DNA from: Bryobacterales bacterium
GTDB lineage: Bacteria; Acidobacteriota; Terriglobia; Bryobacterales; Bryobacteraceae
Direction of reading: 5' to 3'
Assembly: GCA_025350625.1 (NCBI GenBank)
Contig: JANXXL010000334.1
Coordinates: 1-44,185 of the forward strand
DNA: 44,185 bases
Positions 1,133 through 22,709 of the stretch are shown piece by piece (the first letter of the stretch is position 1; each line of letters starts with the position of its first letter). The translations under genes were made by a program, and so were the position numbers. Under the pieces are notes generated by a model, which saw nothing but the letters and a program-made list of their open reading frames with translations, did no database searches and was not told the origin of the DNA.

Positions 1133-3667
1133 ATGTCAGCTTTACAGAAACCGGTGATCCCAGACGATGCCGCCGGCACCGTGGATGTCGTCACCGAGGT
1201 CCGGCGTGAAGCGGCGTTGCTTAAGACCGGTGCGCTCCAGAACGCGATATTTAATAGCGCCAACTTCTCGAGCATTGCCACCGACGAAAAAGGTGTCATT
1301 CAACTATTCAACGTAGGCGCGGAACGCATGCTGGGTTATACCGCCGCCGAGGTGGTGGACAAGATCACTCCCGCCGACATTTCCGATCCCCAGGAAGTGA
1401 TCGCGCGCGCCAAAGCCTTGAGCCTGGAGCTGGCCACTCCGATTACTCCTGGTTTCGAAGCGCTGGTATTCAAGGCTTCGCGCGGCATCGAAGACATCTA
1501 TGAGCTGACTTATATTCGCAAAGACGGCAGTCGTTTTCCGGCGGTAGTGTCGGTCACCGCGCTGCGCGACGATCGCGGCGGAATCATCGGATATTTGTTG
1601 ATTGGGACCGATAACACTGCGCGCAAACAGGCCGAGGAGGCGCTGCTAAAAGCCGGCGCCCTGCAAAGCGCCATTTTCAACAGCGAAAACTTTTCGAGCA
1701 TCGCCACCGATGAGAAAGGCGTCATTCAATTATTCAACGTGGGCGCGGAGCGGATGTTGGGTTATACCGCGAGCGAGGTGGTGGACAAGATCACTCCCGC
1801 CGATATTTCCGACCCCCAAGAAGTCATCGCGCGCGCCAAAGCCTTAAGCCATGAACTGGCGACTCCCATCACGCCGGGCTTCGGTGCGTTGGCGTTCAAG
1901 GCCTCGCGCGGCATCGAAGACATTTATGAACTGACCTACATCCGCAAGGACGGGAGCCGCTTCCCGGCGGTGGTGTCGGTCACGGCGTTGCGCGACGACC
2001 TGGGCGGGATCATAGGCTATCTCCTGATCGGCACCGATAACACGGCCCGCAAGCAAGTGGAAGCTGAACAGAAGCTGCTCGATCAGCGCCTGCGCGATCA
2101 GCAGTTCTATACGCGTTCGCTCATCGAATCCAACATTGACGCTTTGATGACCACCGACCCGGCGGGCATCATTACGGACGTCAATAAGCAGATGGAGGCG
2201 CTCACCGGGTGCACCCGCGATGAGCTGATCGGCGCGCCGTTTAAGAATTACTTCACCGATCCCGACCGCGCCGAAGCGGGCATAAAGCGGGTATTGAGCG
2301 GCAGCAAGGTCACCGATTATGAGCTCACCGCGCGCGCCCGTGACGGCAAGGAAACCGTAGTCTCCTACAACGCCACCACCTTCCATGATCGAGATCGCAA
2401 GCTGCAGGGCGTCTTCGCTGCCGCCCGCGATGTCACGGAGCGGAAACGCTTCGAGCATACTTTGCAGGAGAACAACGTTGAACTCGAGCGGGCCCGGGCC
2501 GCGGCTGAAAAAGCCAACCTCGCGAAATCGGATTTTCTTTCGAGCATGAGCCACGAGCTGCGCTCGCCCCTGAATGCCATCCTCGGCTTCGCCCAGCTCA
2601 TCAGCTCGGAATCGCCGCCGCCCACTGCTTCGCAAACCGCGAGCATCGACCAGATTCTGCACGCGGGATGGTATCTGCTGGAGCTGATCAACGAAATTCT
2701 GGATCTCGCGCAGATCGAATCGGGAAAGCTGGCGCTGTCGATCGAACCCACGTCGCTCGCCGAAGTGATGTCGGAGTGCCAGGCCATGATTGAACCGCAG
2801 GGACAGAAGCGCGGCATCCGCATGACCTTTCCGCACTTCGATGCTCCTTTCTTTGTGGATGCCGACCGGACTCGAGTGAAGCAGGTGCTCATCAATCTGC
2901 TTTCGAACGCGATCAAATACAACCAGCCGAATGGAACGGTGGTGGTCGATTGCGACACCAGCGCGCCGGACCGGGTGCGGGTGAGCGTAAGAGATTCCGG
3001 CGCGGGCCTGGCGCCCGAAATGGTGATGCAGTTGTTTCAGCCTTTCAACCGTCTGGGGCGCGAAACTGGCGCGGAGGAAGGCACCGGTATCGGCTTGGTG
3101 ATGAGTAAGCGCTTGGTCGAAATGATGGGTGGCTTGATTGGCGTCGAAAGCACGGTCGGGTCGGGGAGCGTGTTCTGGTTTGAATTGAATTCGGCGGTAG
3201 CGCCGCGATTGACGATAGACCCGGCCGCAAACCGGGAGATTACGCCGGCGCAAATTCAGCACGACGCCCCCTTAAAAACGCTGCTTTATGTGGAGGACAA
3301 TCCGGCCAACCTGATGCTGGTCGAGCAACTGATCGCGCGCCGGCCCGATATGCGTCTGCTGAGTGCCAGAGACGGCAATCTGGGCATACAAATCGCGCGC
3401 GCTCACCATCCCGAAGTGATCCTGATGGATATCAATCTGCCGGGTATCAGCGGAATCGAGGCCCTCAAAATTCTTCGCGAGGACCCGATGACCGCGCACA
3501 TTCCCGTTGTCGCGCTGAGCGCCAACGCGATGCCCCGCGACATCGAAAAGGGCTTGCAGGCCGGGTTCTTCCGCTATCTCACCAAACCGATCAAGGTCCA
3601 TGAGTTCATGAATACGCTGGATGAGGCGCTGGAATTCGCGGGACAACCGGCCGCTTTGACGAAGTGA
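1133..3667 (+). CDS. Triple-PAS hybrid sensor histidine kinase with C-terminal receiver domain
   Basis: A soluble 844-residue kinase with no membrane segment, so it presumably senses a cytoplasmic cue. Domains in order: PAS 1 (about 29-165), PAS 2 (171-307), PAS 3 (about 325-437), a short coiled coil (440-465), HisKA with the phosphorylated His474 in SMSHELRSPLN, HATPase_c (about 575-686) with the N box LINLLSNAIKY, DSGAGL and the GTGIGL lid, and a receiver domain (about 715-835) with phospho-acceptor Asp766 in ILMDINLPG and Lys818. PAS 1 and PAS 2 are a near-identical tandem duplication. GGAGG at 1118-1122 supports the ATG. The gene for a receiver-SpoIIE phosphatase follows after 13 bases, so phosphate probably passes from this kinase to that protein. 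The PAS ligand is unknown. Confidence 0.93.
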   Translation: MSALQKPVIPDDAAGTVDVVTEVRREAALLKTGALQNAIFNSANFSSIATDEKGVIQLFNVGAERMLGYTAAEVVDKITPADISDPQEVIARAKALSLELATPITPGFEALVFKASRGIEDIYELTYIRKDGSRFPAVVSVTALRDDRGGIIGYLLIGTDNTARKQAEEALLKAGALQSAIFNSENFSSIATDEKGVIQLFNVGAERMLGYTASEVVDKITPADISDPQEVIARAKALSHELATPITPGFGALAFKASRGIEDIYELTYIRKDGSRFPAVVSVTALRDDLGGIIGYLLIGTDNTARKQVEAEQKLLDQRLRDQQFYTRSLIESNIDALMTTDPAGIITDVNKQMEALTGCTRDELIGAPFKNYFTDPDRAEAGIKRVLSGSKVTDYELTARARDGKETVVSYNATTFHDRDRKLQGVFAAARDVTERKRFEHTLQENNVELERARAAAEKANLAKSDFLSSMSHELRSPLNAILGFAQLISSESPPPTASQTASIDQILHAGWYLLELINEILDLAQIESGKLALSIEPTSLAEVMSECQAMIEPQGQKRGIRMTFPHFDAPFFVDADRTRVKQVLINLLSNAIKYNQPNGTVVVDCDTSAPDRVRVSVRDSGAGLAPEMVMQLFQPFNRLGRETGAEEGTGIGLVMSKRLVEMMGGLIGVESTVGSGSVFWFELNSAVAPRLTIDPAANREITPAQIQHDAPLKTLLYVEDNPANLMLVEQLIARRPDMRLLSARDGNLGIQIARAHHPEVILMDINLPGISGIEALKILREDPMTAHIPVVALSANAMPRDIEKGLQAGFFRYLTKPIKVHEFMNTLDEALEFAGQPAALTK
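1217..2053 (+). repeat. In-frame tandem duplication of a PAS domain (two units, 426-base period)
   Basis: Unit 1 is at 1217-1627 and unit 2 at 1643-2053. By hand alignment 129 of 137 residues are identical, yet many third codon positions differ between the copies. The protein sequence has been held constant while the DNA has drifted. Confidence 0.9.
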
Positions 3668-4982: not shown

Positions 4983-5015
4983 CGAGCCTTGTAACCTACC
5001 GACAGGAGAGCACAC

Positions 5016-6956
5016 ATGGCCAAGACCACCAATCCACCTCTGGGACGGCGTAGATTCCTGAAAGGCGCCGCAGCCGGAGCGGCAGTAGGCGCTACTGCCA
5101 TCGTTACTCCGGAAGTCCAGGCCCAGGACGCACAACCCCGCGGCGCGGCCCCTCCCTCGGCTGCTCACCTTGAGGCGGAGCGCAACCCTTCCGCGCGCGG
5201 CGCACAGAGTGAATTCGTCGAGCGGCCCGGAGCGGACTATATGGTCGACGTCATCCAGTCGCTCGGCGTCGAGTATTTCATCGCCAATCCCGGGTCGAGC
5301 TTCCGCGGCCTGCACGAATCGCTGATCAGCCACGGCGGCAATAAGCCCGAGTTCATCACCTGTACCCATGAAGAGATCGCGGCTGCCATGTGCAACGGCT
5401 ACGCCAAAATCGAAGGCAAACCGGCGATTACCGCGGTGCACGGAACCGTCGGGACACAGCACGCGGCCATGGCGATTTATAACGCCTATTGCGATCAGGC
5501 GCCCATGATCGTTCTGGCCGGCAACCGGCGCGACGGCAGTGAACGGCGCAGCTACGTCGAATGGGTCCACAGCGTCCAGGACGCGGCGGCCATGGTGCGC
5601 GACTATACCAAGTGGGACGACAATCCCGGTTCGCTCGAACACTGGGGCGAGTCCATGGTGCGCGGCTACAATCTGGCGCGGACTCCGCCGCAGATGCCCG
5701 TGATGCTGGTTTGCGATGAAGACTTGCAGGAGCAGGCCATCCCGTCGAGCTTCAGCGGCCACATCCCCAAACTCGGCGCGCATAAACCGCCGGCGGGCGA
5801 TCCCGGCTCTGTGAACGAAGTAGCGCGCATGCTGGTGAACGCCGAAAATCCGGTGCTGATCACGGGACTCTCCGCGCGCACGCCTCAGGGACTCAAGCTG
5901 CTGGTCGAGCTGGCGGAGCTCCTGCAATGCGCCGTCATCGACCAAAAGCGCCGCATGAACTTCCCCACTCGCCATCCACTCAACCAGACCCTGCGGCAGC
6001 GCGCGGTGATTGGCGAAGCCGATCTGCTCGTGGGCCTCGATGTGTGGGACTTCTACGGCGTAGTGCACTTGCAGGGTGGAAATCTACGAGTGGAACCGCG
6101 CTCCCTGATAAAGCCCGGCGCCAAGCTGGTGAGCATCGCCGCCAGCGATCTGTTCTTTAAGAGCAATTACCAAAGCTTTTTCCGTAACACCGAAACTGAC
6201 CTCTCATTACCTGGCGATACCGAAGCCACACTGCCGTCGTTGATTGAAGCCGTTAAGCGCTTGCTCACCGAAGACAAGAAGCGCGCATTCGCGGCCCGCG
6301 GCGCGAAGCTTGCCGAGGCTTCTAAGCTCGCCCTCGAACAGCAGCGCACCGCTGCCACCTACGCCTGGGACGCCAGTCCCATCAGCACCGCGCGCATGTC
6401 GATGGAACTTTGGAGCAAGATCAAAAACGAAGACTGGTCTTTGGTTTCCGACAGCTTCTGGGTCAGCCACTGGCCGCAACGGCTGTGGGACATGAGCAAG
6501 CATTACCACTACATCGGCGGCGCGGGCGCGGAAGGGGTGGGCTACCTGGCAGGAGCGACGGTGGGCGCGGCACTCGCCAATAAGAAGTACAACCGGTTGA
6601 CGGTATCGATCCAATCCGACGGTGATTTAATGTACGGACCGGGAGCCCTGTGGACCGCGGCCCATCATCGCATCCCGATGCTGATCCTGATGCACAACAA
6701 TCGGGCTTATCATCAGGAAATCATGCAGCTCCAGCACATCGCGGGCCAGCGGAACCGCGGCTTCGAGCAGTGCAACATCGGTACCACCATTACCGATCCC
6801 AATATCGACTACGCCAAGCTCGCGTCGAGCTTGGGTGTCGAATCCTACGGACCCGTGAGCGACCCGGCAGAACTCGGCCCCGCGATTCAGCGCGGCATCG
6901 AAGCGGTGAAGCGCGGCAACCCCTATTTGATCGATGTAGTGACGCAAGGGCGCTAG
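5016..6956 (+). CDS. Tat-exported thiamine-diphosphate-dependent enzyme (acetolactate synthase/decarboxylase superfamily)
   Basis: A 646-residue protein with a twin-arginine signal (GRRRFLKGAAAG, residues 10-21; likely cleavage near VQAQ, 34-37), so it should be exported folded to the periplasm. The rest has the three-domain layout of thiamine-diphosphate enzymes. The N-terminal Pyr domain (about 72-240) holds the cofactor-activating Glu119 in CTHEEIAAAM and VHGTVGTQHAAMAIYNA. A central domain follows (about 262-420). The C-terminal PP domain has Asp535 in QSDGDLMYG and Asn561-Asn562 in LMHNNRAYHQE, which fit the Mg-diphosphate motif, although the first Gly of canonical GDG is Ser534. The reaction is unknown; decarboxylation or carboligation of a 2-oxo acid is the family expectation. 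AGGAGAG at 5004-5010 fixes the start. A cytochrome c gene follows after 8 bases. Cytoplasmic relatives are the rule, so export is unusual. Confidence 0.88.
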   Translation: MAKTTNPPLGRRRFLKGAAAGAAVGATAIVTPEVQAQDAQPRGAAPPSAAHLEAERNPSARGAQSEFVERPGADYMVDVIQSLGVEYFIANPGSSFRGLHESLISHGGNKPEFITCTHEEIAAAMCNGYAKIEGKPAITAVHGTVGTQHAAMAIYNAYCDQAPMIVLAGNRRDGSERRSYVEWVHSVQDAAAMVRDYTKWDDNPGSLEHWGESMVRGYNLARTPPQMPVMLVCDEDLQEQAIPSSFSGHIPKLGAHKPPAGDPGSVNEVARMLVNAENPVLITGLSARTPQGLKLLVELAELLQCAVIDQKRRMNFPTRHPLNQTLRQRAVIGEADLLVGLDVWDFYGVVHLQGGNLRVEPRSLIKPGAKLVSIAASDLFFKSNYQSFFRNTETDLSLPGDTEATLPSLIEAVKRLLTEDKKRAFAARGAKLAEASKLALEQQRTAATYAWDASPISTARMSMELWSKIKNEDWSLVSDSFWVSHWPQRLWDMSKHYHYIGGAGAEGVGYLAGATVGAALANKKYNRLTVSIQSDGDLMYGPGALWTAAHHRIPMLILMHNNRAYHQEIMQLQHIAGQRNRGFEQCNIGTTITDPNIDYAKLASSLGVESYGPVSDPAELGPAIQRGIEAVKRGNPYLIDVVTQGR

Positions 6957-6964
6957 GAACAACG

Positions 6965-7306
6965 ATGAAGAAACTGGCGACATTGATAATACTGCTGGCC
7001 GCTCCCGCGGTAGTGGCAGAAGCCCAAAGCGCAGGCAACGCCGAAAGCGGGAAAAAGGTGTTCGAGCGCATGATGTGTTACTCCTGCCACGGCCATGAAG
7101 GCCAGGGCGGCGGCGCGGGCCCGCGCATCGGAGTGAAACCGCCGCCGCTTGCAGGGTTCCTCGCGTATGTGCGCCATCCGGCGGGCGTCATGCCGCCGTT
7201 CACGCCGAAAGTGGTATCGGATGCGGAACTGACGGACGTCCATGCGTATCTGTCCAGCCGTCCCCCACCGCCTCCGCTCAAAGATATTCCGCTATTGAAT
7301 CAGTAA
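6965..7306 (+). CDS. Small periplasmic monohaem cytochrome c
   Basis: A 113-residue protein with a Sec signal peptide (residues 1-20, cleaved near AEAQ). A single haem c site, CYSCH (Cys38, Cys41, His42), is followed by Met76 in GVMPPF as the probable distal axial ligand, the pattern of a class I cytochrome c. It ends in a Pro-rich tail. The frame is open further upstream, inside the preceding gene, but the ATG at 6965 has AGGAA at 6955-6959 and is followed directly by the signal peptide. The 8-base spacing to the exported thiamine-diphosphate enzyme makes cotranscription likely. The cytochrome is a natural electron acceptor for an oxidative reaction of that enzyme; this partnership is inferred from the gene order. 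Confidence 0.92.
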   Translation: MKKLATLIILLAAPAVVAEAQSAGNAESGKKVFERMMCYSCHGHEGQGGGAGPRIGVKPPPLAGFLAYVRHPAGVMPPFTPKVVSDAELTDVHAYLSSRPPPPPLKDIPLLNQ

Positions 7307-9275: not shown

Positions 9276-12200
9276 ATGACTCTCTTCTACTCATCTAACT
9301 CGACCAATAGATTATTTTTGAAGTTTGCTGGCATGTTTCTATTAGCAGCTACCAGCCACGCGATAGCGCAGCAAGTTGCGTTGTCCTTGAGTTCGGGAAG
9401 TGCGGCGCCGGGCAGCGCGTTAAGTGTGAATATTTCGCTAGCGAGTGCGGCTGGTTCTAGTCCCGCCGCAGTGCAATGGACCCTGAATTATCCAACTCCT
9501 GCGGTAAGCAACGTGAGCATCGTAGCCGGGTGGGCCGCCACGGCGGCACGCAAGAGCGCAACCTGTGTGAGTGGGCCAAGCTCCACTACATGCGTGATGT
9601 CCGGGATCAACCAGTCCCTCATTGGCGATGGGCTTTTGGCGGTTGCAACATTCACCGTCTCGCCAAATGCCGCAACGTCCTCGCTTCCCATTCAACTCGC
9701 CGCGGTCTCCTCCACACCTGCCGGCAATGCGATTCCCTCCACCGGAACGGGGGGAACAATCTTGGTGAGTGGGGCCACTCAAGCAACGCTAAGCGCGCTG
9801 ACGTGCTCGCCCGTGATCATCAGCACTCCTGGAACTTCGGTTTGCACGATAAATCTAAACGCACCATCGCCCACTGGCGGAATCAGCGTGAGCCTTGCGA
9901 GTAACAACTCGAATGTAGTAATTCCGTCGACCGTGAACATCCCACCGGCGGCGTCAAGCGCTGTTTTTACAGCCACCATCTCAGCAGTGTCCAGCGCGCA
10001 GACCGTTACTGTTACGGCTAGCACTGGTAGTAGCAACCGTACTCAGACTCTCACTTTGAATCCCGGCGCAGGACTCTTGAGTATTTCCGGTACCGTCACG
10101 CCGTCTTCATTCGGAAGCGGAACAACGGTAACCCTGACTGGAGGGAGCGTTAAGGCCGTTGACAATTCCGGGAATTACGCGTTCAGCGGGCTGGCAAAGG
10201 GGAGTTACACCATCACTCCCAGCAAGAGTGGCTATACTTTCATTCCCCCCACTCAATCGGTGATCCTCGACAGTTCGAGCCTTAGTTCGGTAAATTTCAC
10301 AGCCGTTCCAAGTGCGACTTCCGGAATGATAACCATCGACGTCGAGGTTCGGCACGATCAAACCACAGCAAACTCTGTGATCACTTCTCCCAAATTCTCA
10401 ACGGCCTCAAACGGAGAACTATTACTGGCGTTCATAGCCGCGGGAAACGCTTCCGACACCGGGACCACGGTAAATAGTATTTCCGGCGCAGATCTGGCGT
10501 GGGTTCCCGTCGTAAGAACTCACACGCAAAAGGGGACAGCGGAGATCTGGCGCGCCTTCTCGCAGACTCCGCGGAATAATGTATCTGTTACTGCTGCCTT
10601 ATCGGCCGCGGTCACTTCCTCGATGACTGTGATGTCCTTTGCCGGTGTCGATCCTTCGGGCGTTAATGGCTCTGGCGCTATCGGCGCGATCGTGCGCGGA
10701 AGTGGCTCGAGCGGAGCCGCCGCAGCAGGCTTGCTCACCACGCGGCAAAACTCACTGGTGGTGGGAGTGGGGAACGATCCCGGTAGAGCCGCCGCGCGAA
10801 CTGCGGGCCTGGGGCAAACTCTGGTACATCAATACCTGGATCCAAGCGGAGCAACTTATTGGGTCCAGATATCGAACGGCCTGGGGCCGCTCCCCAGCGG
10901 CAGCAGCGTTACCATCAACGATTTGTCTCCGTCCAACGATCCTTACAATTTGAGCATCGCCGAAATTCTTGCCGCCGGCGCTCCCACCGCAACTAGCCCC
11001 AACCAGAACTCTCACGGAACGCCGATCTTGAGCGACCTTGCCGGGATTCCCGTGACTAACGCTTGCAGCCCCGGCGGAGAAGTTCTTTTGACGGGGACCG
11101 GCTTCACCGGGCAGGCTCCGCAAGCAGCCACCGGAACTCCGTTGCCCACCCAGTTGGCGGGAGCACGAGTCACAGCCAACGGGATCCCGATGCCATTACT
11201 ATCTGTGGCGGACTCGCGAGTTGTCTTTGAATGTCCCGTGCTCCCTCACGGAACGCCGTTAAACATAACCGTCGAAGCTGCGAACGGTTCCACGAGCTCT
11301 CCCAACGCAACGGTGATGAAGGACGTAGTGCCGGAATTATTCACCCTCGATAACACCAACCAGGGTTTGATTCTGGTGGGAACCACTAACCAGATCGCCA
11401 TGGACACAAACGAAACTGTGCCGAGCCGGCCCGCTCGGCCCGGCGAGTCTTTGGCGATTTACGCCACCGGCCTCGGCGAATTTGACGATCGAGTCCCGCT
11501 GGGTGCCGCTGCGCGATTAAGCATGCCGGCCTTGTCGATAAGTCAAATTCATGTGGTAGTCGGAGGCATACAAATTGAACCTGTCAGAATGGAGCCTTCG
11601 CCCACCAACGCCGGATTGACGCAGCTGTTTGCCCAACTACCGCTAAACATCCCCGGAGGAGACGCGGTCCCTATCTTCGTGAGAGTCGTCTTTTCAGACG
11701 GGACTGCGGTTGAGAGTAATGAAGCAACCCTTGCAATCGATCGTTCCTCTGCGGCGGGAGACGGTGCCCAGGCAGTAGCAGGCAATTCGGCATTGTTCGT
11801 CGCAACGGACGCGGCCACCCAAGGGAATTGGAAGGGCATCTACGGCGCCAAGGGGTATAACGTGATCGATGATTCGGTCTCTTACCCTTCTTATGTCGCC
11901 GTAACCCCCGCTGGTCAGGCGAACCATATTTGGGCTGGATCAACCACTGACGTGCGGGGCCTGCAGAAAGGGCTCTCTGCTACCGACCGGATCGGAGCCA
12001 CTTGGTATTCGTCCGGAACCTTTACGATGGACGTTAACGTTACCGATGGACTGCAACACCAGTTAACGATTTACTGTGTGGATTGGGACTCAGGCGGTGC
12101 GCGTTCCCAGACCGTCAGCATTTTGGATGGCGCTACCAACGCGGTGCTTAACAGCCAGAGCATGAGCAGTTTTCAAAACGGAAAGTACTTGGTTTGGAAG

Positions 12201-12278
12201 CTGACGGGTCACCTAATCATTCGGGTGACCAATACCAGCCAGATCAACGGCACCGTCAGTGGACTGTTCTTCAACTGA
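9276..12278 (+). CDS. Large secreted mosaic protein: cohesin-like, carboxypeptidase-regulatory-like and TIG-like domains
   Basis: A 1000-residue protein with an N-terminal signal (hydrophobic core about 13-27, cleavage near AIAQ at 29-32). Residues about 34-165 resemble a cohesin fold; about 195-260 are an Ig-like beta repeat; about 268-343 (LSISGTVTPSS and YAFSGLAKGSYTITPS) look like a carboxypeptidase-regulatory/prealbumin-like domain. About 350-555 form an unassigned beta-rich region. About 600-690 look like a TIG/IPT domain (EVLLTGTGFTG), followed by a segment with KDVVPELFTLDNT and LAIYATGLGEF that recurs in Solibacter-type secreted proteins. The last 160 residues (ATQGNWKGIYGAKGYNVI to GKYLVWKLTGHLIIRVTN) form a C-terminal beta domain. 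The protein is probably extracellular or cell-surface, binding carbohydrate or protein; no catalytic motif is visible. The start lacks a good ribosome-binding site, and the ATG at 9333 is a possible alternative. Confidence 0.85.
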   Translation: MTLFYSSNSTNRLFLKFAGMFLLAATSHAIAQQVALSLSSGSAAPGSALSVNISLASAAGSSPAAVQWTLNYPTPAVSNVSIVAGWAATAARKSATCVSGPSSTTCVMSGINQSLIGDGLLAVATFTVSPNAATSSLPIQLAAVSSTPAGNAIPSTGTGGTILVSGATQATLSALTCSPVIISTPGTSVCTINLNAPSPTGGISVSLASNNSNVVIPSTVNIPPAASSAVFTATISAVSSAQTVTVTASTGSSNRTQTLTLNPGAGLLSISGTVTPSSFGSGTTVTLTGGSVKAVDNSGNYAFSGLAKGSYTITPSKSGYTFIPPTQSVILDSSSLSSVNFTAVPSATSGMITIDVEVRHDQTTANSVITSPKFSTASNGELLLAFIAAGNASDTGTTVNSISGADLAWVPVVRTHTQKGTAEIWRAFSQTPRNNVSVTAALSAAVTSSMTVMSFAGVDPSGVNGSGAIGAIVRGSGSSGAAAAGLLTTRQNSLVVGVGNDPGRAAARTAGLGQTLVHQYLDPSGATYWVQISNGLGPLPSGSSVTINDLSPSNDPYNLSIAEILAAGAPTATSPNQNSHGTPILSDLAGIPVTNACSPGGEVLLTGTGFTGQAPQAATGTPLPTQLAGARVTANGIPMPLLSVADSRVVFECPVLPHGTPLNITVEAANGSTSSPNATVMKDVVPELFTLDNTNQGLILVGTTNQIAMDTNETVPSRPARPGESLAIYATGLGEFDDRVPLGAAARLSMPALSISQIHVVVGGIQIEPVRMEPSPTNAGLTQLFAQLPLNIPGGDAVPIFVRVVFSDGTAVESNEATLAIDRSSAAGDGAQAVAGNSALFVATDAATQGNWKGIYGAKGYNVIDDSVSYPSYVAVTPAGQANHIWAGSTTDVRGLQKGLSATDRIGATWYSSGTFTMDVNVTDGLQHQLTIYCVDWDSGGARSQTVSILDGATNAVLNSQSMSSFQNGKYLVWKLTGHLIIRVTNTSQINGTVSGLFFN

Positions 12279-12358
12279 CTTGTGTTGCCGCCTCAATAAC
12301 AGCCTGTTGCGCCGGCCAGGTGAACGATGCCAGTATTATCGATGGTATCGACCCGCCC

Positions 12359-13786
12359 ATGATTGAGCAGCCCGCCCGCGACTCGTCCCCGGTTATCGAA
12401 TCCTGGCTAGTGTACGCGCACGGATTGGCCGCGATTGTGACGCTGCTCATCTCGGTAGGATTCGGCGTGCTGGCCTCGATCGAGCTTTTGATTCCCGACT
12501 TAGCCGGAAATACGCCGTGGCTTACCTGGGGACGCCTGCGCTACGACCATACGCAGGGGGTCATTTTCGGATGGCTGGGCAACGCGTTTTTCGCGTTCCT
12601 CTATCATGCGGTGCCGGTGCTGACAGGCAAACGCGTTACCAGTGTCCGGCTGGGGCAATGGCTTTTCGGATTGTGGAACTTCGCAGTGGTCGCCCCGGGC
12701 TGGATTCTGGTGTTGGCCGGCTTCAGCCAGCCGCTCGAGTGGGCTGAATTTCCGCTGGTGATCGATGCTTTCGTAATGGTGGCGCTGATTCTCGCGCTGA
12801 TACAATTTCTACCGCCCTTTTTTTCCCGCCAGCTCGAAGACCTTTACGTTTCGAGCTGGTACATTATCGGGGGCCTGGTCTTCACGTTGCTCGCGTATCC
12901 GATGGGAAACTTCGTACCAGAACTGATACCCGGCGCGCGCGGGGCCGCCTTCAGTGGTTTGTGGATTCACGACGCTATTGGGTTATTCGTTACTCCCCTG
13001 GCGGTGGCGATCCTCTACTATGTAATCCCGGCCGCCACGCGCCGGCCCATCTTCAGCCACTTTCTCTCGATGCTGGGCTTCTGGCTGCTGTTCTTTCTGT
13101 ACCCTCTCAACGGCACGCATCATTACATATTTTCCGTGATACCGATGGGCGCGCAGATTGGGGCAATCACCGCCTCCACGCTCCTGGGGGTCGACGTAAT
13201 TCTGGTAGTGGCCAATTTGCTATTGTCCCTGCGCGGCGCGGGTTGGTTCCCACGCGACATAGCCCTGCGCTTCGTCGCCACCGGAACTGTGTTCTACCTG
13301 ATTGTGAGCATTCAAGGCTCGGTGCAAGCCCAGATGTCTGTCAATCAGAGCGTGCATTTTTCAGACTGGGTAGTGGGTCATTCGCATCTGGCGATGCTGG
13401 GCTTCGCGACTTTCGCGGCGGCGGGCGGCGTGATTCACGCGTGGCAAAGGATTCCCTGGGCGCGTTATAACGCGCAAATGCTGGAGTGGGCCTACTGGCT
13501 GCTGGTGGCGGGCGTCGTCATCATGGTCTCCGATCTCACGATTGCAGGATTGGTGGAGGCGCGTTTGTGGCAATCGGCCGCACCGTGGATGGATTCCGTG
13601 CGAGCAGCGCGCCCGTATTGGATCATTCGCACTCTCACTTTCATCCCGATCGGCGCGGGATTTGTAGCTTTGCTCGCGGGACTAATCACCGGCGACCGCG
13701 GCGCGGGCCTCAGGAATGTCCAGGAAGAGCTGGGATTGGAACCGGTTAGTGAAATCGCCCCCCGCTTCGCACCAGAGGTCGCATGA
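12359..13786 (+). CDS. ccoN: cbb3-type cytochrome c oxidase subunit I (CcoN)
   Basis: A 475-residue protein with about 12 membrane helices, the catalytic subunit of a haem-copper oxidase that reduces O2 to water. Metal-ligand histidines are in place: His64 (RYDHTQGVIFGW, low-spin haem), His204 (WIHDAIGLF, CuB), His254-His255 (NGTHHYIF, CuB), and His341 and His343 (VVGHSHLAMLGF, haems). Tyr220-Tyr221 (ILYYVIP) fit the position of the cbb3 cross-linked tyrosine. The frame stays open back into the preceding gene; I take the ATG at 12359, with GTG 12320 as an alternative, as neither has a strong ribosome-binding site. It overlaps the next gene by ATGA, so it is the first gene of a four-gene operon. 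No separate ccoO or ccoP follows. Confidence 0.9.
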   Translation: MIEQPARDSSPVIESWLVYAHGLAAIVTLLISVGFGVLASIELLIPDLAGNTPWLTWGRLRYDHTQGVIFGWLGNAFFAFLYHAVPVLTGKRVTSVRLGQWLFGLWNFAVVAPGWILVLAGFSQPLEWAEFPLVIDAFVMVALILALIQFLPPFFSRQLEDLYVSSWYIIGGLVFTLLAYPMGNFVPELIPGARGAAFSGLWIHDAIGLFVTPLAVAILYYVIPAATRRPIFSHFLSMLGFWLLFFLYPLNGTHHYIFSVIPMGAQIGAITASTLLGVDVILVVANLLLSLRGAGWFPRDIALRFVATGTVFYLIVSIQGSVQAQMSVNQSVHFSDWVVGHSHLAMLGFATFAAAGGVIHAWQRIPWARYNAQMLEWAYWLLVAGVVIMVSDLTIAGLVEARLWQSAAPWMDSVRAARPYWIIRTLTFIPIGAGFVALLAGLITGDRGAGLRNVQEELGLEPVSEIAPRFAPEVA

Positions 13787-15000
13787 GACGCCTGCTGCGA
13801 ATGTCCTACCTGGTGGCGGGCCTCGGAGGGGTGGGTTTTTTCGCGATGTCGATCTTGCTGCTCGGGGTCTGGCCGGGACGCACGCTCGAACAACAGATTC
13901 GCGGGACTTCACCGGAACATCCATTGGCCTTGACCGCCAGCGAAACGCGCGGGCGCAAGATTTACGCGCGCGAAGGCTGCGCCTATTGCCACACGCAGCA
14001 AATCCGCTATGTTGCAGCCGATGTCGGGCGTTTTGGCAGGGCCACGCTCGCCTGGGAGACGATCTTCGATTATCCTCACCTCTGGGGCACACGCCGCATC
14101 GGCCCCGACCTGTCACGCGAATCGTCGGTGCGTTCAGGAGATTGGCAACTGTCACATCTCTATGCGCCACGTACATTGGTGACGGATTCCGTAATGCCGC
14201 CTTTCCCCTGGTTGTTTGACGGCGCGCCCGATCGCCCTCGGCAAGAAGCCCGTGACTTGCTGGACTATCTCGAAACCTTGGGGCGGGATCGAGCGCTGGC
14301 GGGTCCCGAGGGAGAAGCGCATGCGCTGGCAGCGTGCAATTGCTCAGACGACGCCAAGCGCTTCGCGTTCGCTCCCGCCGCTCTCAACGCGAGCCCCTCG
14401 CGCGCACGGCGCGGCGCGGACTATCCTGGCCTCGCTCCATCGAGCGACCGGGATCGCGGTGAACAAGTTTATTCCCGCTACTGCGCCAATTGCCATGGAC
14501 CGCGCGGTGAAGGCGATGTGCCTGGAGCGGCGGGGCTTCATCCGCGCCCGGTCAACTTAACGGAACACGAATACACCCTGGATCGCCTTGGTGACTCGCT
14601 CTGGAATGGTGTAGCGGGAACGGCGATGCCCGCGTGGCGCGAACTGGGAGTGGAGGACCTTTCCGCTGTAGCGCAGTTGGTGCGATCTTTTCACGTGGCG
14701 CAGCCGGAGCCAGCCATCCCCCAGCTGGTGCTCGACCTCGGCGCGCGCGTTTACGCGGCCCGGTGTTCACAATGCCACGGAGAGAACGGAGATGGAAATG
14801 GATCGGCCGCCAACCAGTTCCCCATTGCGGCTACGAATTTCCGATCGCAGCGCCCGAGTCTGGCCGCGAGTCTCCGGGTTCTGCGTAATGGCGTCGAGGG
14901 AACACCGATGGCCCCGTGGTCGGGCGAGCTGTCAGAAGCCCAGCTTTCAGCGGTGGCGTATTTTGTTCGAGGATTCTACCAGGGAGGGCCCAGCCAATGA
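13783..15000 (+). CDS. Three-haem cytochrome c oxidase subunit: CcoO-like N-terminus fused to a CcoP-like dihaem tail
   Basis: A 405-residue protein with one N-terminal membrane anchor (about 8-30). Residues 50-165 match CcoO: haem site CAYCH (Cys66, Cys69, His70) followed by TQQIRYVAADVGRFG, RRIGPDL and a Met ligand in SVMPPFPWL (Met138). After a linker come two cytochrome c domains typical of CcoP: CANCH (234-238) with Met282, and CSQCH (328-332) with Met376. In most cbb3 oxidases these are separate proteins; here one chain would pass electrons from a periplasmic donor to CcoN. A linker Cys pair (CNC, 185-187) is not a haem site. It overlaps ccoN and the next gene by ATGA at both ends, so translation is coupled. 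The fusion reading is inferred from motif order. Confidence 0.88.
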   Translation: MRRLLRMSYLVAGLGGVGFFAMSILLLGVWPGRTLEQQIRGTSPEHPLALTASETRGRKIYAREGCAYCHTQQIRYVAADVGRFGRATLAWETIFDYPHLWGTRRIGPDLSRESSVRSGDWQLSHLYAPRTLVTDSVMPPFPWLFDGAPDRPRQEARDLLDYLETLGRDRALAGPEGEAHALAACNCSDDAKRFAFAPAALNASPSRARRGADYPGLAPSSDRDRGEQVYSRYCANCHGPRGEGDVPGAAGLHPRPVNLTEHEYTLDRLGDSLWNGVAGTAMPAWRELGVEDLSAVAQLVRSFHVAQPEPAIPQLVLDLGARVYAARCSQCHGENGDGNGSAANQFPIAATNFRSQRPSLAASLRVLRNGVEGTPMAPWSGELSEAQLSAVAYFVRGFYQGGPSQ

Positions 15001-15200
15001 ATATGACCGCCTCGATGAATCAGTGGACAGCCATGGACCTCATCGTCGGACTGTCGGTGTTGTTCGCGTTCGCGTTTTTGGCGGCCTGGATCGTCTCACC
15101 GGCTCTCCGCGCCTGGGTGGAACGGCCTAAGTACCGCTTGCAGGAAAACATGAGACGCTATGATCAGGACCAGCGGGAAGGGAGGAACAGCCCCAGATGA
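14997..15200 (+). CDS. One-helix membrane protein of the oxidase operon (CcoQ-like position)
   Basis: A 67-residue protein with a single membrane helix at about residues 14-35 (MDLIVGLSVLFAFAFLAAW begins it), followed by a charged cytoplasmic tail with ERPKYRLQENMRRYDQD. AGGGAGGG at 14981-14988 precedes the ATG, which overlaps the stop of the three-haem subunit by ATGA; its own stop overlaps the next start the same way. Small one-helix proteins (CcoQ and similar) are common in cbb3 operons, where they stabilise the complex. Sequence similarity to CcoQ is not evident, so the name rests on size, topology and position only. Confidence 0.75.
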   Translation: MNMTASMNQWTAMDLIVGLSVLFAFAFLAAWIVSPALRAWVERPKYRLQENMRRYDQDQREGRNSPR

Positions 15201-16174
15201 AACCAGACGCTTCGCCATCCGGCATGGGAATCGTAGTTGCATTGTGCGCAACAATCGGACTGATCTCGGTAGCGGCCACGCTCGCTTTCGGCAGGGCTTC
15301 CCTCATTCCCAAAGGCTCGGTGCAATCCACAGTCTCGATCTCGAGTACCGAAGAATATGGGAAGCGGCTCATCACTCAGACATCGGAATATTTAGGACCG
15401 GATGTCGCCGATGCCAAGATGCGCTCCATGAACAGCCGACTGGCATGTGCCTCGTGCCACATCGGAGCGGGCGTCGAACCGGGCAACCTCAGCCTGGCGG
15501 TTGCCATCACGAAATATCCCCGGATTTCCCCACGCAGCGGCACAAACGAAACCATCGAGGCGCGCATCAACGGCTGCATGCTGCGCAGCATGAACGGCCG
15601 CGCGCTCGACGAAAACAGCCCTGAGATGATCGCGATGGTTTCTTACTTGCGATTCTTGGCGGCGCAGGACGCAGCCACCGGCGCGGGCCAGCGCAAGGCG
15701 CACGAGCCGCCCGCGTTTAAGACACCCAATCGGGCAGTTGATTTGAAAGCGGGCGCGAGCGTCTTTGAGAAGCGTTGCGCGGCATGCCATGGCCAGGATG
15801 GAGCGGGACTCGCGGCAGCTCCCAGCCGGATTCACGGTTATGTGTTTCCGCCGCTGTGGGGTCCTGACAGCTTTAACGACGGGGCTGGAATGCACCGCGT
15901 GCTGACCGCAGCCAGATTCATTAAAGCTCGCATGCCTTTGGGGAATCCGGATCTAAGCGATGGCGAAGCGTTCGACGTTTCCGGGTTCGTCAATGCAAAG
16001 CCTCGTCCAGAGATGCCAGGGCTCGACCGCGACTACCCTGACAGAAGCCAGAAGCCGGTAGATACCAGCTACCTGCCCTATGCGGATGCCTTCCCGGCGG
16101 AACAGCATCACCTGGGTCCCTTTCAACCGATCGAGGCGTATTACAAGAGCAAAAAGAAACCGCCGGCCCGGTAG
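15197..16174 (+). CDS. Membrane-anchored dihaem cytochrome c, TsdA-like (thiosulfate dehydrogenase family)
   Basis: A 325-residue protein with an N-terminal hydrophobic segment (about 11-31) that may be a signal anchor. The first domain reads YGKRLITQTSEYLG, then LACASCHIGAG (Cys84, Cys87, His88) and ARINGCMLRSMNGRAL, the pattern of TsdA and SoxA-like cytochromes. In that family the Cys of the RINGC motif, here Cys127, is a plausible axial ligand of the active-site haem. The second domain has CAACH (194-198) with Met246 in ARMPLG as the likely distal ligand. TsdA joins two thiosulfates into tetrathionate; the substrate here is inferred. As the last gene of an oxidase operon joined by ATGA overlaps, it may feed electrons directly to the three-haem subunit. 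Confidence 0.82.
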   Translation: MKPDASPSGMGIVVALCATIGLISVAATLAFGRASLIPKGSVQSTVSISSTEEYGKRLITQTSEYLGPDVADAKMRSMNSRLACASCHIGAGVEPGNLSLAVAITKYPRISPRSGTNETIEARINGCMLRSMNGRALDENSPEMIAMVSYLRFLAAQDAATGAGQRKAHEPPAFKTPNRAVDLKAGASVFEKRCAACHGQDGAGLAAAPSRIHGYVFPPLWGPDSFNDGAGMHRVLTAARFIKARMPLGNPDLSDGEAFDVSGFVNAKPRPEMPGLDRDYPDRSQKPVDTSYLPYADAFPAEQHHLGPFQPIEAYYKSKKKPPAR

Positions 16175-19050: not shown

Positions 19051-20385
19051 CTAAACCGCTAACAGCTCGGGCACCCGGCCCTGGCTATCGCCGAAGCTAT
19101 CGAGGTGAATCCCGACCTTATCCAATAACGTCAGGTGGAGGTTCGCCAACGGCGTGGGTTGCGCATACTTGATGTGACGCCCGCCCTTAAGCTTGCCCGC
19201 TCCGCCGCCCACAAGCATGATCGGCAGTTCCGAGTGGCTGTGGATGCTGGGATTGCCCATGCCGCTGCCGTAAAGGCAAATCGAATGATCCAGCAGCGAG
19301 CCGTTCCCATCCTGCGTGGCCTTCAACTTTTCGAGGAAATATGCGAACAGCGACACGTGAAACGCATTGATCTTGGCTAGCTTCTCCAGCTTCTCGGGGT
19401 CGCCTCCGTGGTGCGAGGTGGGGTGGTGCGCTTCGGGAACCCCGATTTCGGGGTAGGTACGAACGCTTTGTTCGCGAGCTAATTGGAAGGTAACGACGCG
19501 AGTGACGTCGCCCTGAAAAGCGAGCACCTGCAAGTCGAACATCAATTTGGCGTGGTCTGCATAGGTGGCTGGGACGCCGACCGGGCGGTCCAGGTCCGGC
19601 AAATGGGACTCGGTGGTGTCGCCCTCGGCCTTCTGAATGCGCCGCTCTAGTTCGCGAATCGTATCCAGATATTCACTCACAATGGTGCGGTCTCCCGGCC
19701 CCAGTTTCCGCTGCAGGCGTGCCACATCTTCATTTACCGAATCGAGCATGCTGGCCTTGAGGCTCAATGCGCTCCTGCGGTTTGCCGCACTCCCACCCTC
19801 GCCGAACAGGCGCTCAAAAACGATGCGCGGGTGAGCTTCGTAGGGAAGCGGGGTGGTAGGCGACGACCACGAAAGATTGTTCTGGTAGACGCAGGCAAAG
19901 CCATTGTCACACTGACCCACGTTGACGAGCAGATCCATGGCCAGCTCCAGCGAAGGGAGCGCAGTGTCCTGGCCCATTTGCTTGGCGGCGACCTGATCGA
20001 CGGTGGTGGCCAGGCGGTAGTCGGTGCTCTCGGTCAGCTTCGCCCTGGCGGCGCTCAAGAAGGCACAATTGGCGGTGGCATGGGTGCCAGGATAAGCGGT
20101 CTGCAGCTCCATGTTGGTGAGCACTGTGACCTGATCCATGAATGGCGTCAGCGAGTGGAGAATGGGCGGCAGCTCGGTGATCGTGCCCTCGGCTTTGGGA
20201 GTCCACTGCGCGATGTTGGCGCCCATCGGAATGTACATGAAGCCGAGGCGGCGGACGGGGTTGCCGGCAGTCGCCGCCAGCGCCGTATGCGCCGGGATCA
20301 TGGCGTCGAGCAAGGGCAGCGCTAGAGTCGCCCCCACGCCCCGCAGGAAAGTCCGCCGCGGCAGAGCCTTCTTCATGATGATCAT
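19051..20385 (-). CDS. Tat-exported DUF1552 protein
   Basis: A 444-residue protein with a twin-arginine signal (LPRRTFLRGVGATLALPLLD, residues 8-27) and the conserved pattern of DUF1552: RLGFMYIPMGANIAQW, TVLTNMELQTAYPGTHATA, and near the end LLDHSICLYGSGMGNPSIHS with LPIMLVGGGAGKLKGGRHI. The fold resembles the DUF1501/sulfatase-like group, but no activity is established. It would sit in the periplasm. GAGGAG lies six bases before the ATG, which overlaps the stop of the PSD1-type gene by ATGA. DUF1552 and DUF1592-type genes are commonly paired in Acidobacteria, Planctomycetes and Verrucomicrobia, suggesting one complex or pathway, possibly polysaccharide or other polymer breakdown. Confidence 0.93.
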   Translation of the reverse strand: MIIMKKALPRRTFLRGVGATLALPLLDAMIPAHTALAATAGNPVRRLGFMYIPMGANIAQWTPKAEGTITELPPILHSLTPFMDQVTVLTNMELQTAYPGTHATANCAFLSAARAKLTESTDYRLATTVDQVAAKQMGQDTALPSLELAMDLLVNVGQCDNGFACVYQNNLSWSSPTTPLPYEAHPRIVFERLFGEGGSAANRRSALSLKASMLDSVNEDVARLQRKLGPGDRTIVSEYLDTIRELERRIQKAEGDTTESHLPDLDRPVGVPATYADHAKLMFDLQVLAFQGDVTRVVTFQLAREQSVRTYPEIGVPEAHHPTSHHGGDPEKLEKLAKINAFHVSLFAYFLEKLKATQDGNGSLLDHSICLYGSGMGNPSIHSHSELPIMLVGGGAGKLKGGRHIKYAQPTPLANLHLTLLDKVGIHLDSFGDSQGRVPELLAV

Positions 20386-22709
20386 TGCGTTCTCCTCATT
20401 TGAAACGGTGTACTGTTCACGATTCCCAAAATCACCGACGAGAAACGATAATCCTTGGTGCGGGCGTCCGCGACGATGTTGCGGACTGCCGGAGCGTCGT
20501 AATATTCAACCCCGCGACCCAGCGCGTAGGTAAGCAATTTTTCGGTGAACGTCGAAACAAACAATTCCGGACGGCTCAGCACGGCTTTCTGCAGCCCTGC
20601 GACTCCTTCAAAAGTACTTCCGTCGGGAAGGCCACCTGTCGCGTCGATGGGTTTTTCTTCCTCAATGGTTCGCCAGCGGCCTACCGCATCGTAATTTTCA
20701 AGCGAAAAGCCCACCGGGTCCATGAGCCTGTGGCAGCCTGCACAGGGCATATTGGCACGATGGAGCGCCAGCCGCTCCCGCACCGACAAACCTTTTATCG
20801 ATCCCTCGTTCTCCTTCAAGGGCGGGACTACGGGCGGCGGAGGAGGCGGCGGTACTCCCAGAATATTTTCCAGAATCCACTTGCCGCGAATTACCGGCGA
20901 AGTGCGGGTGGCATAGGAGGTCACAATGAGAACGCTTCCCTGGCGCAGCAGGCCACCGCGCCCCTCATACTCAATCCTCCGGAAGCGGCTGCCGTAAACG
21001 TTGGGGATTCCGTAATGCTTGGCCAAGCGCTCATTGACATAGGTGTAGTTCGCGCTCAAGAGTTCCGGAACGCCGCGGTCTTCGCGCATGATGCTGTCAA
21101 AGAACAATTCTGTCTCTTGCCGGAACGCCTGCCGCAGATTATCGTCGAAATCCGGGAACAAGCGCATGTCCGGGGTGGTCGACGCCAAATTGCGCAAGTA
21201 CAACCATTGCTCGGCGAAGTTGTTGACCAAGGCGCGCGAACGGGCATCGGAGAGCATGCGGCGCACTTGTAATTCCAGCCCCGCGGGAGTCTTGAGCTTA
21301 CCGCTCACTGCCGCGTCAAGGAGTTCGTCGTCCGGAATACTGCTCCACAAGAAGAAAGACAAGCGTGAGGCCAATTCCAGATCGCTAATGTGATAGGCCG
21401 TGTTGGGCGCTACGTTCGGCGGGTCGGATTCTACCCGAAAGATGAATTCAGGGTTCACTAATACGGAATACAGGGCGGTTTGAATACCAGCCTCAAATCC
21501 TCCCTCTGGCTGCGTCCGCCAGTAAAACTTCAGCGGAGTCTCCAGGTCTCGATCCGTCACCGGACGGCGGTAGGCGCGCCGCGTCAGGGTCGTCAGAATC
21601 TGCTTGGCGCAGGCTTCTTCCTCGGCGGGCTTGGCCGGCTTGCACACGAAAATCCGGCGGCGGCTGGGGGTGTCCCCGGGACTCTGCGCGCCGTACGGGC
21701 CGTTAATGGTCACCGTGTAGAGTGCCGGCTGAATGCGGGGATGACGTTCCATGTTGAAATGCGCCTGGTAGGGTTGACGCTCTGTGGGCAATAAGATCCA
21801 GGGCTTTTTCAGAAAGGCGACGCTCACTTCGTGCGGGCCGGCTTTTACCGGGATGCGGACATTCAGGTCCAGATCCACCGCATGCTCATCTTCGCCCGTC
21901 GGGGGCGTAATCGTGAACGACTTTACTTGTTCTTTATCCAACAGCAACTGTAGTTCATGGGGTTCGTTTAGCCCCGCGACACGCTCCCTGCTGTCGCGCA
22001 CCAGCCGCAGCTGAATTTCGTATTCCGCGTCTACCGGGAAGTTATAGTTGACCGAGGTCCCGCCCCGCAGCCCCGTGGGAAGATTAGCAAACCGCTGTTC
22101 CTGGGTGAGGTCCGGGGGAAGTATGATGGTGTCGCCCCCCGGCGAAGGAATGGACCCGCCGACTGCCAGCCGGCTAATCTTTTCGCCTGCCGATAAATAT
22201 CGTTCCAGCAGCGTGGGCGAAAGATTTCCGACCGTCACGTTATCAAAACCGTGGCTCGATTCGTCGGCGGGCAGAAGCGGAGTGACATCCACCTCCACTC
22301 CCAGCAGATCGCGAACAGCATTCTGGTATTCCGTTCGCGTCAACCGGCGGACTGAACCCGTCCGGCCCGGATTCGGCTGGGCCGCTGCGGCGCTATCGAG
22401 CTCCTTCACGAGCGACGACACAACTGCGGTGTAGGTCTGGTCATCGGGACGCGGCAGCCCCGGCGGCGGCATATAATGGCCGCGAAGTTTCCGGATCACC
22501 TTCTCCCATTCTTGCGGGTGCTGACTTACACTGTCCGCGAGAATCCCATCGAGTGCCAGTCCTCCTACCTTCAGCTTGCTGTTATGGCAACCGATGCAAT
22601 ACTGATTGACGACACCAGCGGGAGGCTGCGCGTGCGCGGCGAAGAAACCGGTCATGGCCACCGCGAACGCCAACCGTGCGGCTATAGACCTCACGGAACT
22701 CCTCGGCAT
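20382..22709 (-). CDS. PSD1-type cytochrome with DUF1587, DUF1595, DUF1592, DUF1588 and DUF1585 domains
   Basis: A 775-residue exported protein (signal peptide 1-27, ending AAHAQ). It starts with a cytochrome c domain, CIGCH (Cys38, Cys41, His42), and continues with the fixed domain series: DUF1587 (about 98-165, RLTRTEYQNAVRDLLGVE), a beta-rich carbohydrate-binding-like region (about 200-340), DUF1595 (about 368-428), DUF1592 (about 443-580, SRLSFFLWSSIPDDELL), DUF1588 (about 590-685) and DUF1585 (about 695-772). DUF1588 holds a second CxxCH, CAGCH (656-660). A Pro-rich run sits near 635. Known family members are abundant in polymer-degrading soil bacteria but have no proven reaction; redox chemistry in the periplasm is likely given the haems. 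First gene of the three-gene operon. Confidence 0.95.
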   Translation of the reverse strand: MPRSSVRSIAARLAFAVAMTGFFAAHAQPPAGVVNQYCIGCHNSKLKVGGLALDGILADSVSQHPQEWEKVIRKLRGHYMPPPGLPRPDDQTYTAVVSSLVKELDSAAAAQPNPGRTGSVRRLTRTEYQNAVRDLLGVEVDVTPLLPADESSHGFDNVTVGNLSPTLLERYLSAGEKISRLAVGGSIPSPGGDTIILPPDLTQEQRFANLPTGLRGGTSVNYNFPVDAEYEIQLRLVRDSRERVAGLNEPHELQLLLDKEQVKSFTITPPTGEDEHAVDLDLNVRIPVKAGPHEVSVAFLKKPWILLPTERQPYQAHFNMERHPRIQPALYTVTINGPYGAQSPGDTPSRRRIFVCKPAKPAEEEACAKQILTTLTRRAYRRPVTDRDLETPLKFYWRTQPEGGFEAGIQTALYSVLVNPEFIFRVESDPPNVAPNTAYHISDLELASRLSFFLWSSIPDDELLDAAVSGKLKTPAGLELQVRRMLSDARSRALVNNFAEQWLYLRNLASTTPDMRLFPDFDDNLRQAFRQETELFFDSIMREDRGVPELLSANYTYVNERLAKHYGIPNVYGSRFRRIEYEGRGGLLRQGSVLIVTSYATRTSPVIRGKWILENILGVPPPPPPPVVPPLKENEGSIKGLSVRERLALHRANMPCAGCHRLMDPVGFSLENYDAVGRWRTIEEEKPIDATGGLPDGSTFEGVAGLQKAVLSRPELFVSTFTEKLLTYALGRGVEYYDAPAVRNIVADARTKDYRFSSVILGIVNSTPFQMRRTQ

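Follow-up and report, generated by a model that had tools for sequence, protein, structure and literature searches.

The enzyme and cytochrome genes at the locus

Within the window, i.e., the whole stretch of 44,185 nucleotides of a Bryobacterales genome that we analyzed, we identified a gene encoding a 646 aa thiamine-diphosphate (ThDP) enzyme that bears a twin-arginine (Tat) signal and is benzoylformate-decarboxylase-like by its best solved relatives and a Foldseek search of its structural model (5016..6956, + strand), followed on the same strand by a gene encoding a signal-bearing, monohaem class I cytochrome c of 113 aa (6965..7306). The enzyme open reading frame starts with an ATG at 5016, is preceded by a ribosome-binding site (AGGAG) and spacer recognized by reading the sequence (5004..5015, + strand), has the N-terminus MAKTTNPPLGRRRFLKGAAAGAAVGATAIV and ends with a stop codon at 6954-6956; eight bases then separate it from the cytochrome ATG at 6965, and the cytochrome stop is at 7304-7306. 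TPP_enzyme_N, _M and _C (PF02776, PF00205 and PF02775) all score over the Pfam cut-off in the enzyme, i.e., the N, M and C ThDP-enzyme domains looked for in a member of the DC superfamily are present in one chain. The twin-arginine signal region (5046..5123, + strand) contains RRRFLK at residues 11-16, as part of the motif RRRFLKGA, and then a small-residue stretch; this RRxFLK-type motif stands before a hydrophobic stretch, as in a Tat substrate, and a gene for the translocase protein TatC (198 bits) is present in the same genome. It is possible, from the sequence, that the signal is cleaved after VQA at residue 36. The first-pass annotation had described a full-length ThDP enzyme with a twin-arginine signal and, after a gap of 8 bases, a small monohaem cytochrome c with a signal peptide, and the domains, motifs and coordinates all agree with this description.

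The cytochrome contains a single haem motif, CYSCH (residues 38-42), and both Cytochrome_CBB3 and Cytochrom_C score over the Pfam cut-off. Our alignment of 32 partner cytochromes demonstrated that C38, C41, H42, R70 and M76 are invariant; the CXXCH motif and distal Met are those of a class I cytochrome c, and Met76 is likely to be the axial haem ligand. The AF2 model of the window cytochrome has a pLDDT of 81.8 and a pTM of 0.70. Dihaem proteins make up 10 of the 53 partner cytochromes listed. A profile of the partners finds its best matches among cytochromes of bc1 and cbb3 complexes (E 5e-14 down) and, with scores below these, also matches 1dii_C (E 1.7e-8), the small subunit, a cytochrome, of p-cresol methylhydroxylase (PchF-PchC). 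That system is periplasmic and has its own small class I cytochrome, but its enzyme has a different fold and is a flavoprotein.

At 12194-15000 of the window lies a cbb3-type oxidase core, i.e., a COX1 protein followed by FixO fused to further cytochrome c domains, and at 15197-16171 a cytochrome c protein with SoxA/TsdA-type and Cytochrome_CBB3 domains. On the minus strand, at 19051-22706, we observe an HXXSHH (DUF1552) and PSD2/3/4/5-PSCyt3 pair, in the latter of which the cytochrome domain is just over the cut-off. Upstream, a histidine-kinase-like protein (1133-3667) contains two nearly identical tandem repeats of ~140 residues that are PAS-like by reading.

Conservation of the export signal and of the gene pair

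Our alignment of exported-type enzymes demonstrated that R11 and R12 are kept in all 70 rows, F14 in 68 and L15 in 69, while in the linker (residues 21-66) the commonest residue averages a share of only 0.40. Since the motif is invariant while the linker drifts freely, the signal is a genuine one, and a spurious signal arising from a mis-called start is ruled out. With 12 further genes added to the 70 aligned rows, the motif is present in all 82 genes examined of the exported clade, a set that takes in part of the places listed in the class sample, with the partial row L023 and duplicate stretches dropped, the genes called by a crude caller and the start codons picked by a rule favoring a start near the RR motif. 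In the AF2 model of the window enzyme, residues 1-43 have a pLDDT <50, as expected for a signal. The eight cytoplasmic relatives, ~35% identical, have no Arg at the position aligned with R12; the expectation that homologues would share the signal is thus borne out in the genes examined of the exported clade and fails in these more distant relatives.

In 68 of these 82 genes, which come from Acidobacteriota and from Alpha- and Betaproteobacteria, a cytochrome c adjoins the 3′ end, and 14 of 82 lack an adjacent cytochrome; the gene pair that the first-pass annotation proposed to seek in other genomes is therefore conserved, and as read from the sequences it is a real pair of an export-signal ThDP enzyme and a cytochrome in more than one phylum. 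We found a match to a cytochrome HMM with a haem motif within ~460 bases of the 3′ end in 56 of 70 genes (53 on the same strand and 3 convergent), against a chance expectation of ~0.57 of 74 genes with both sides counted, where the chance rate was taken from HMM matches in the rest of the 0.91 Mb that the loci span, and where the HMM, having been trained on these same partners, makes this a test of density and not an independent discovery. This census rules out a chance neighbor. In the 12 added genes (L104, L108, L111 and L113-L121; some of the added loci, including L116, were located by BLAST), a CXXCH protein is present within 460 bases of each, as judged by the CXXCH motif and by reading and not by the HMM. 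The gap between enzyme and cytochrome has a median of 10 bases and is ≤50 bases in 48 of the 53 co-directional pairs, with starts picked by rule. Pairwise distances of enzymes and cytochromes also co-vary (r = 0.60 for 56 pairs, a value reached by 0 of 2000 permutations), in a test that keeps shared species history in and includes several paralogues per genome. Signal and pairing are therefore well supported by sequence, and they suggest that the enzyme is exported.

The 14 genes with no adjacent cytochrome comprise L051, with a dihaem cytochrome at 736 bases, L081, which is at a contig end, and 12 that have no neighboring cytochrome c despite >900 bases of downstream sequence. One of these 12, L075, is immediately followed by another copy of the gene, which does have a cytochrome. 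In a quick tree, members lacking the cytochrome are interspersed with those that have it, which fits repeated loss of the cytochrome. No enzyme column tracked the presence of the cytochrome over our threshold (57 rows with it and 12 without), and since 12 of 82 genes lack it, the enzyme may work without a cytochrome or share one. Among the rows inspected, we found no fusion of enzyme and cytochrome, with C-terminal extensions of 0-3 aa, and of 12 aa in one row cut by the end of its stretch.

The distribution of the exported enzyme is patchy and not universal. At E ≤ 1e-100, and with the genome of the window counted in each, the family sample has members in 3 of its 61 genomes and the class sample in 58 of 399; the phylum sample has them in 13 of 347 genomes (E ≤ 1e-130; G000, G024 and G072 are also in the class count). 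For the Rhizobiales MAG L019, 5 of 289 genomes of its class sample match at 1e-110, of which only two, G429 (the uncultured Rhizobiales MAG) and G571, have the exported type, and the other three have relatives without the signal that are 35-36% identical. In the class, phylum and L019-class samples, these counts rest on the 3-4 top-scoring candidates in each genome. Among the named carriers are MAGs of Terriglobia, Bryobacterales, Rhizobiales and Rhodospirillaceae, an unannotated Novosphingobium plasmid and a plasmid of Caballeronia zhejiangensis, in the record of which a ThDP protein and then a c-type cytochrome are annotated. The quick tree places L012, a locus from a MAG titled Rhodospirillaceae, inside an acidobacterial clade, which points to either a transfer or a mislabelled bin.

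Some genomes carry several copies; for example, the genome of the window has four paralogues, and tandem enzyme copies are present at L075 and L076 and at L108/L111. Together with the lack of a fixed metabolic neighborhood, this is the pattern that would be seen if the exported enzyme scavenged aldehydes or 2-oxo acids of the envelope and the cytochrome were an electron outlet for several paralogues; as such a role does not account for the co-varying cytochrome that most paralogues have retained for themselves, we consider it improbable.

Fold, active site and relatives of the ThDP enzyme

The AF2 model of the enzyme, built from 68 sequences and without cofactors, has a mean pLDDT of 88.7 and a pTM of 0.87. 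Its best Foldseek matches are 4q9d, benzoylformate decarboxylases (BFDs), the 4-hydroxybenzoylformate decarboxylase 6qsi and actinobacterial 2-hydroxyacyl-CoA lyase (AcHACL; 7pt1-7pt4, TMq 0.71-0.72), the last of which is cytoplasmic and acts on a CoA substrate. BFDs are also the best solved relatives by sequence. Compared with the BFDs (Pseudomonas putida 1bfd/1mcz; 6qsi, 7orx; 4q9d), the window enzyme has the same three-domain ThDP decarboxylase fold over its full length, with the cofactor Glu, the Mg site and the active-site Ser/His aligned, but identity is ~20-22% and only the window enzyme has a Tat signal and its own cytochrome c. The BFD active site includes Ser26, His70 and His281; Ser94 (Ser in 56 of 70 rows) and His142 (70 of 70) align with the first two of these, while the window enzyme has no His at the position of His281. 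It also falls below the NCBIfam equivalog cut-off for BFD (161.8 of 493 bits).

Examination of 73 aligned rows demonstrated that Glu119, the cofactor-activating Glu (codon at 5370..5372), His142, which aligns with the His of the BFD motif NLHSAAGT (codon at 5439..5441), and Asp535, Gly536, Asp537 and Asn561 of the Mg/diphosphate site S534-D535-G-D ... N561 (6615..6698, all + strand) are invariant (73/73). The cofactor Glu and the Mg-binding Asp and Asn expected in the DC superfamily (E119, D535 and N561) are thus kept, as the first-pass annotation had read them, and they are in place in the confident model, itself made without cofactors. The Ser that it had noted at the first Gly of GDG is confirmed, but this is no notable loss, as the column is variable (N 22, T 16, C 12, P 6, S 5 and G 4 of 70 exported-type rows), and this Gly, though common in the DC superfamily, is not strictly required. 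The replacement of this Gly in most members, and the absence from the window protein of a His counterpart to BFD His281, are what might be cited for a protein that is no longer an enzyme, i.e., one with a binding or structural role whose pairing is historical; given the six residues invariant in every row and the high-confidence enzyme fold of the model, we regard this as very improbable.

A second set of residues marks the exported clade. His566, Glu568 and Met570 of the signature H566-Q-E568-I-M570 (6711..6725, + strand) occur in every one of the 71 exported-clade rows and in none of the 8 cytoplasmic relatives. By position, we equate Glu568 with the Glu that pyruvate decarboxylases (NNxGYTxE) use in catalysis and that serves non-oxidative decarboxylation. 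As read from the sequences, these active-site residues argue for real 2-oxo-acid or aldehyde chemistry, and not for oxidation as such.

The nearest non-exported relatives found are a cytoplasmic clade of “thiamine pyrophosphate-binding proteins” (Sinorhizobium, Phyllobacterium and Salipiger; 34-36% identity), which lack the Tat signal, have Asp in place of Glu568 and have neither His566 nor Met570. Genes for tripartite tricarboxylate transporters lie around theirs, and Salipiger has aldehyde dehydrogenases there as well. Of the eight cytoplasmic relatives, three (L057-L059) have no cytochrome-HMM match nearby, and a bare CXXCH scan of the other five was positive in one (L107), where the mark is probably false. 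The best NCBIfam match of the window enzyme, PRK08327 (“thiamine pyrophosphate-requiring protein”; 245.8 bits, residues 68-643), is far below its 456-bit cut-off, and its name states no function. On the NCBIfam pyruvate oxidase model the enzyme scores only 85.8 of 742 bits. Pyruvate oxidases (PoxB, LpPOX) carry out a ThDP oxidative decarboxylation in which electrons leave the enzyme, but they use FAD and are cytoplasmic; the nearest folds of the window enzyme are mostly BFDs, which are FAD-free.

The genome of the window (G000) also contains, on contig C147 (L005), an ordinary BFD-like gene in which GDGS is intact and the likely start lacks a Tat motif. We rejected the idea that the window enzyme is the ordinary BFD of this genome, as the separate C147 gene starts, from the start chosen, with MKTVHQVTYELL. 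RRQLL in the C147 frame and RRSLL in the L057 frame lie ahead of the chosen starts and were discounted.

Gene neighborhood and proposed function

No neighbor of the enzyme other than the cytochrome is widely shared: the cytochrome cluster (cluster 1) occurs in 31 of 55 loci and the next clusters in ≤10, in a set that includes a few duplicate stretches and for which the crude gene caller misses some genes. No other redox enzyme therefore explains the pair generally. A larger operon with a dehydrogenase was not found as a rule. A substrate-binding-protein-like family of ~330 aa (cluster 9), which we take to resemble 4,5-dihydroxyphthalate decarboxylase, is in the same operon as the ThDP gene in four loci (L063:9252-10241, L066:3964-4953, L086:5396-6382 and L099:5166-6206); its members at L066 and L086 reached no family cut-off, and a PhtC-like class II aldolase at L066 is below its cut-off (87.7 of 200 bits). 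These are too few of the 55 loci for a phthalate link to name the substrate. In L060-L062 (for example, L060:7536-9473), exported ThDP genes without a cytochrome are followed by Abhydrolase_10-type proteins, as assigned by Pfam on the L060 copy. A few genes upstream in the same three loci is a protein that is CtaB-like by reading.

The main alternative to a redox role is that the exported enzyme acts as a lyase or decarboxylase without redox chemistry, converting a 2-oxo acid to an aldehyde and CO2 or cleaving an acyloin, with the cytochrome carrying electrons for a separate dehydrogenase that oxidizes the product. Its fold and residues are those of BFD and its relatives, Glu568 is invariant in the exported clade, and 12 of 82 genes have no cytochrome nearby; indeed, it is because 14 of 82 lack an adjacent one with no visible change in the enzyme that such a role comes into question. 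PQQ-dehydrogenase-like genes (cluster 5, one member Pfam-checked) occur in 6 of 55 loci, and at L091 such a gene is on the same strand, three genes upstream. As no dehydrogenase family recurs beside the pair beyond a few of the 55 loci, we judge this alternative unlikely, though it is the one that weighs most.

We propose that the exported ThDP enzyme probably oxidizes its substrate in the periplasm with its own cytochrome as the acceptor. This proposal of electron transfer stems from association, since the one partner that this enzyme with its export signal commonly has, and with which it co-varies, is a redox carrier. The enzyme would fold and load ThDP and Mg in the cytoplasm, which is the usual reason for use of the Tat pathway, and the folded enzyme would then be exported by Tat, with the signal probably removed. 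ThDP would attack a 2-oxo acid, with loss of CO2, or an aldehyde, giving an enamine intermediate, from which the haem of the dedicated cytochrome c would accept two electrons in single steps; this transfer would replace, or add to, protonation of the enamine with release of an aldehyde. The remaining acyl-ThDP would be hydrolyzed to a carboxylic acid, and the reduced cytochrome would pass its electrons to a terminal oxidase, for which the cbb3-type oxidase set and further cytochrome 5 kb on in the window are a plausible electron sink. Based on the BFD-like fold, our first guess at the substrate is a 2-oxo acid that is bulky or aromatic.

In enzyme assays, ThDP enamines can be oxidized by ferricyanide and other outer-sphere oxidants; we found no paper on such oxidation in the open-access literature. 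We know of no natural precedent for direct transfer from enamine to haem, and this, together with the 12 cytochrome-less genes that show no matching change in the enzyme, speaks against the redox reading. No FAD- or FeS-type relay is evident for the pair. We would put forward only tentatively that the pair is a new class of respiratory dehydrogenase, in which the enamine of an exported ThDP enzyme hands its electrons straight to a dedicated c-type cytochrome, with no flavin, iron-sulphur or CoA involved. The first-pass annotation knew of no described system of this kind, and we likewise found no description of such a pair among the matches listed from the open-access literature, as seen from titles and the starts of abstracts in a body of papers from which subscription journals are largely absent.

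To our knowledge, ThDP enzymes are known only from inside cells or organelles. If the proposal is correct, a class of enzymes that cleave carbon-carbon bonds would join the periplasmic dehydrogenases, through an exported branch that is widespread and has a cytochrome of its own. As the active site of the ThDP superfamily needs a dimer, Tat would here have a cargo whose active site depends on dimerization, and the pair would allow one to test whether haem can take electrons directly from a ThDP intermediate. 2-Oxo acids or aldehydes would be oxidized in the periplasm, with energy conserved without uptake of the substrate, and soil Acidobacteriota would harvest electrons from acids and aldehydes outside the membrane. 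The conservation of the pair in many soil bacteria suggests an undescribed oxidation of carbon compounds outside the inner membrane, with the electrons passed to respiration.
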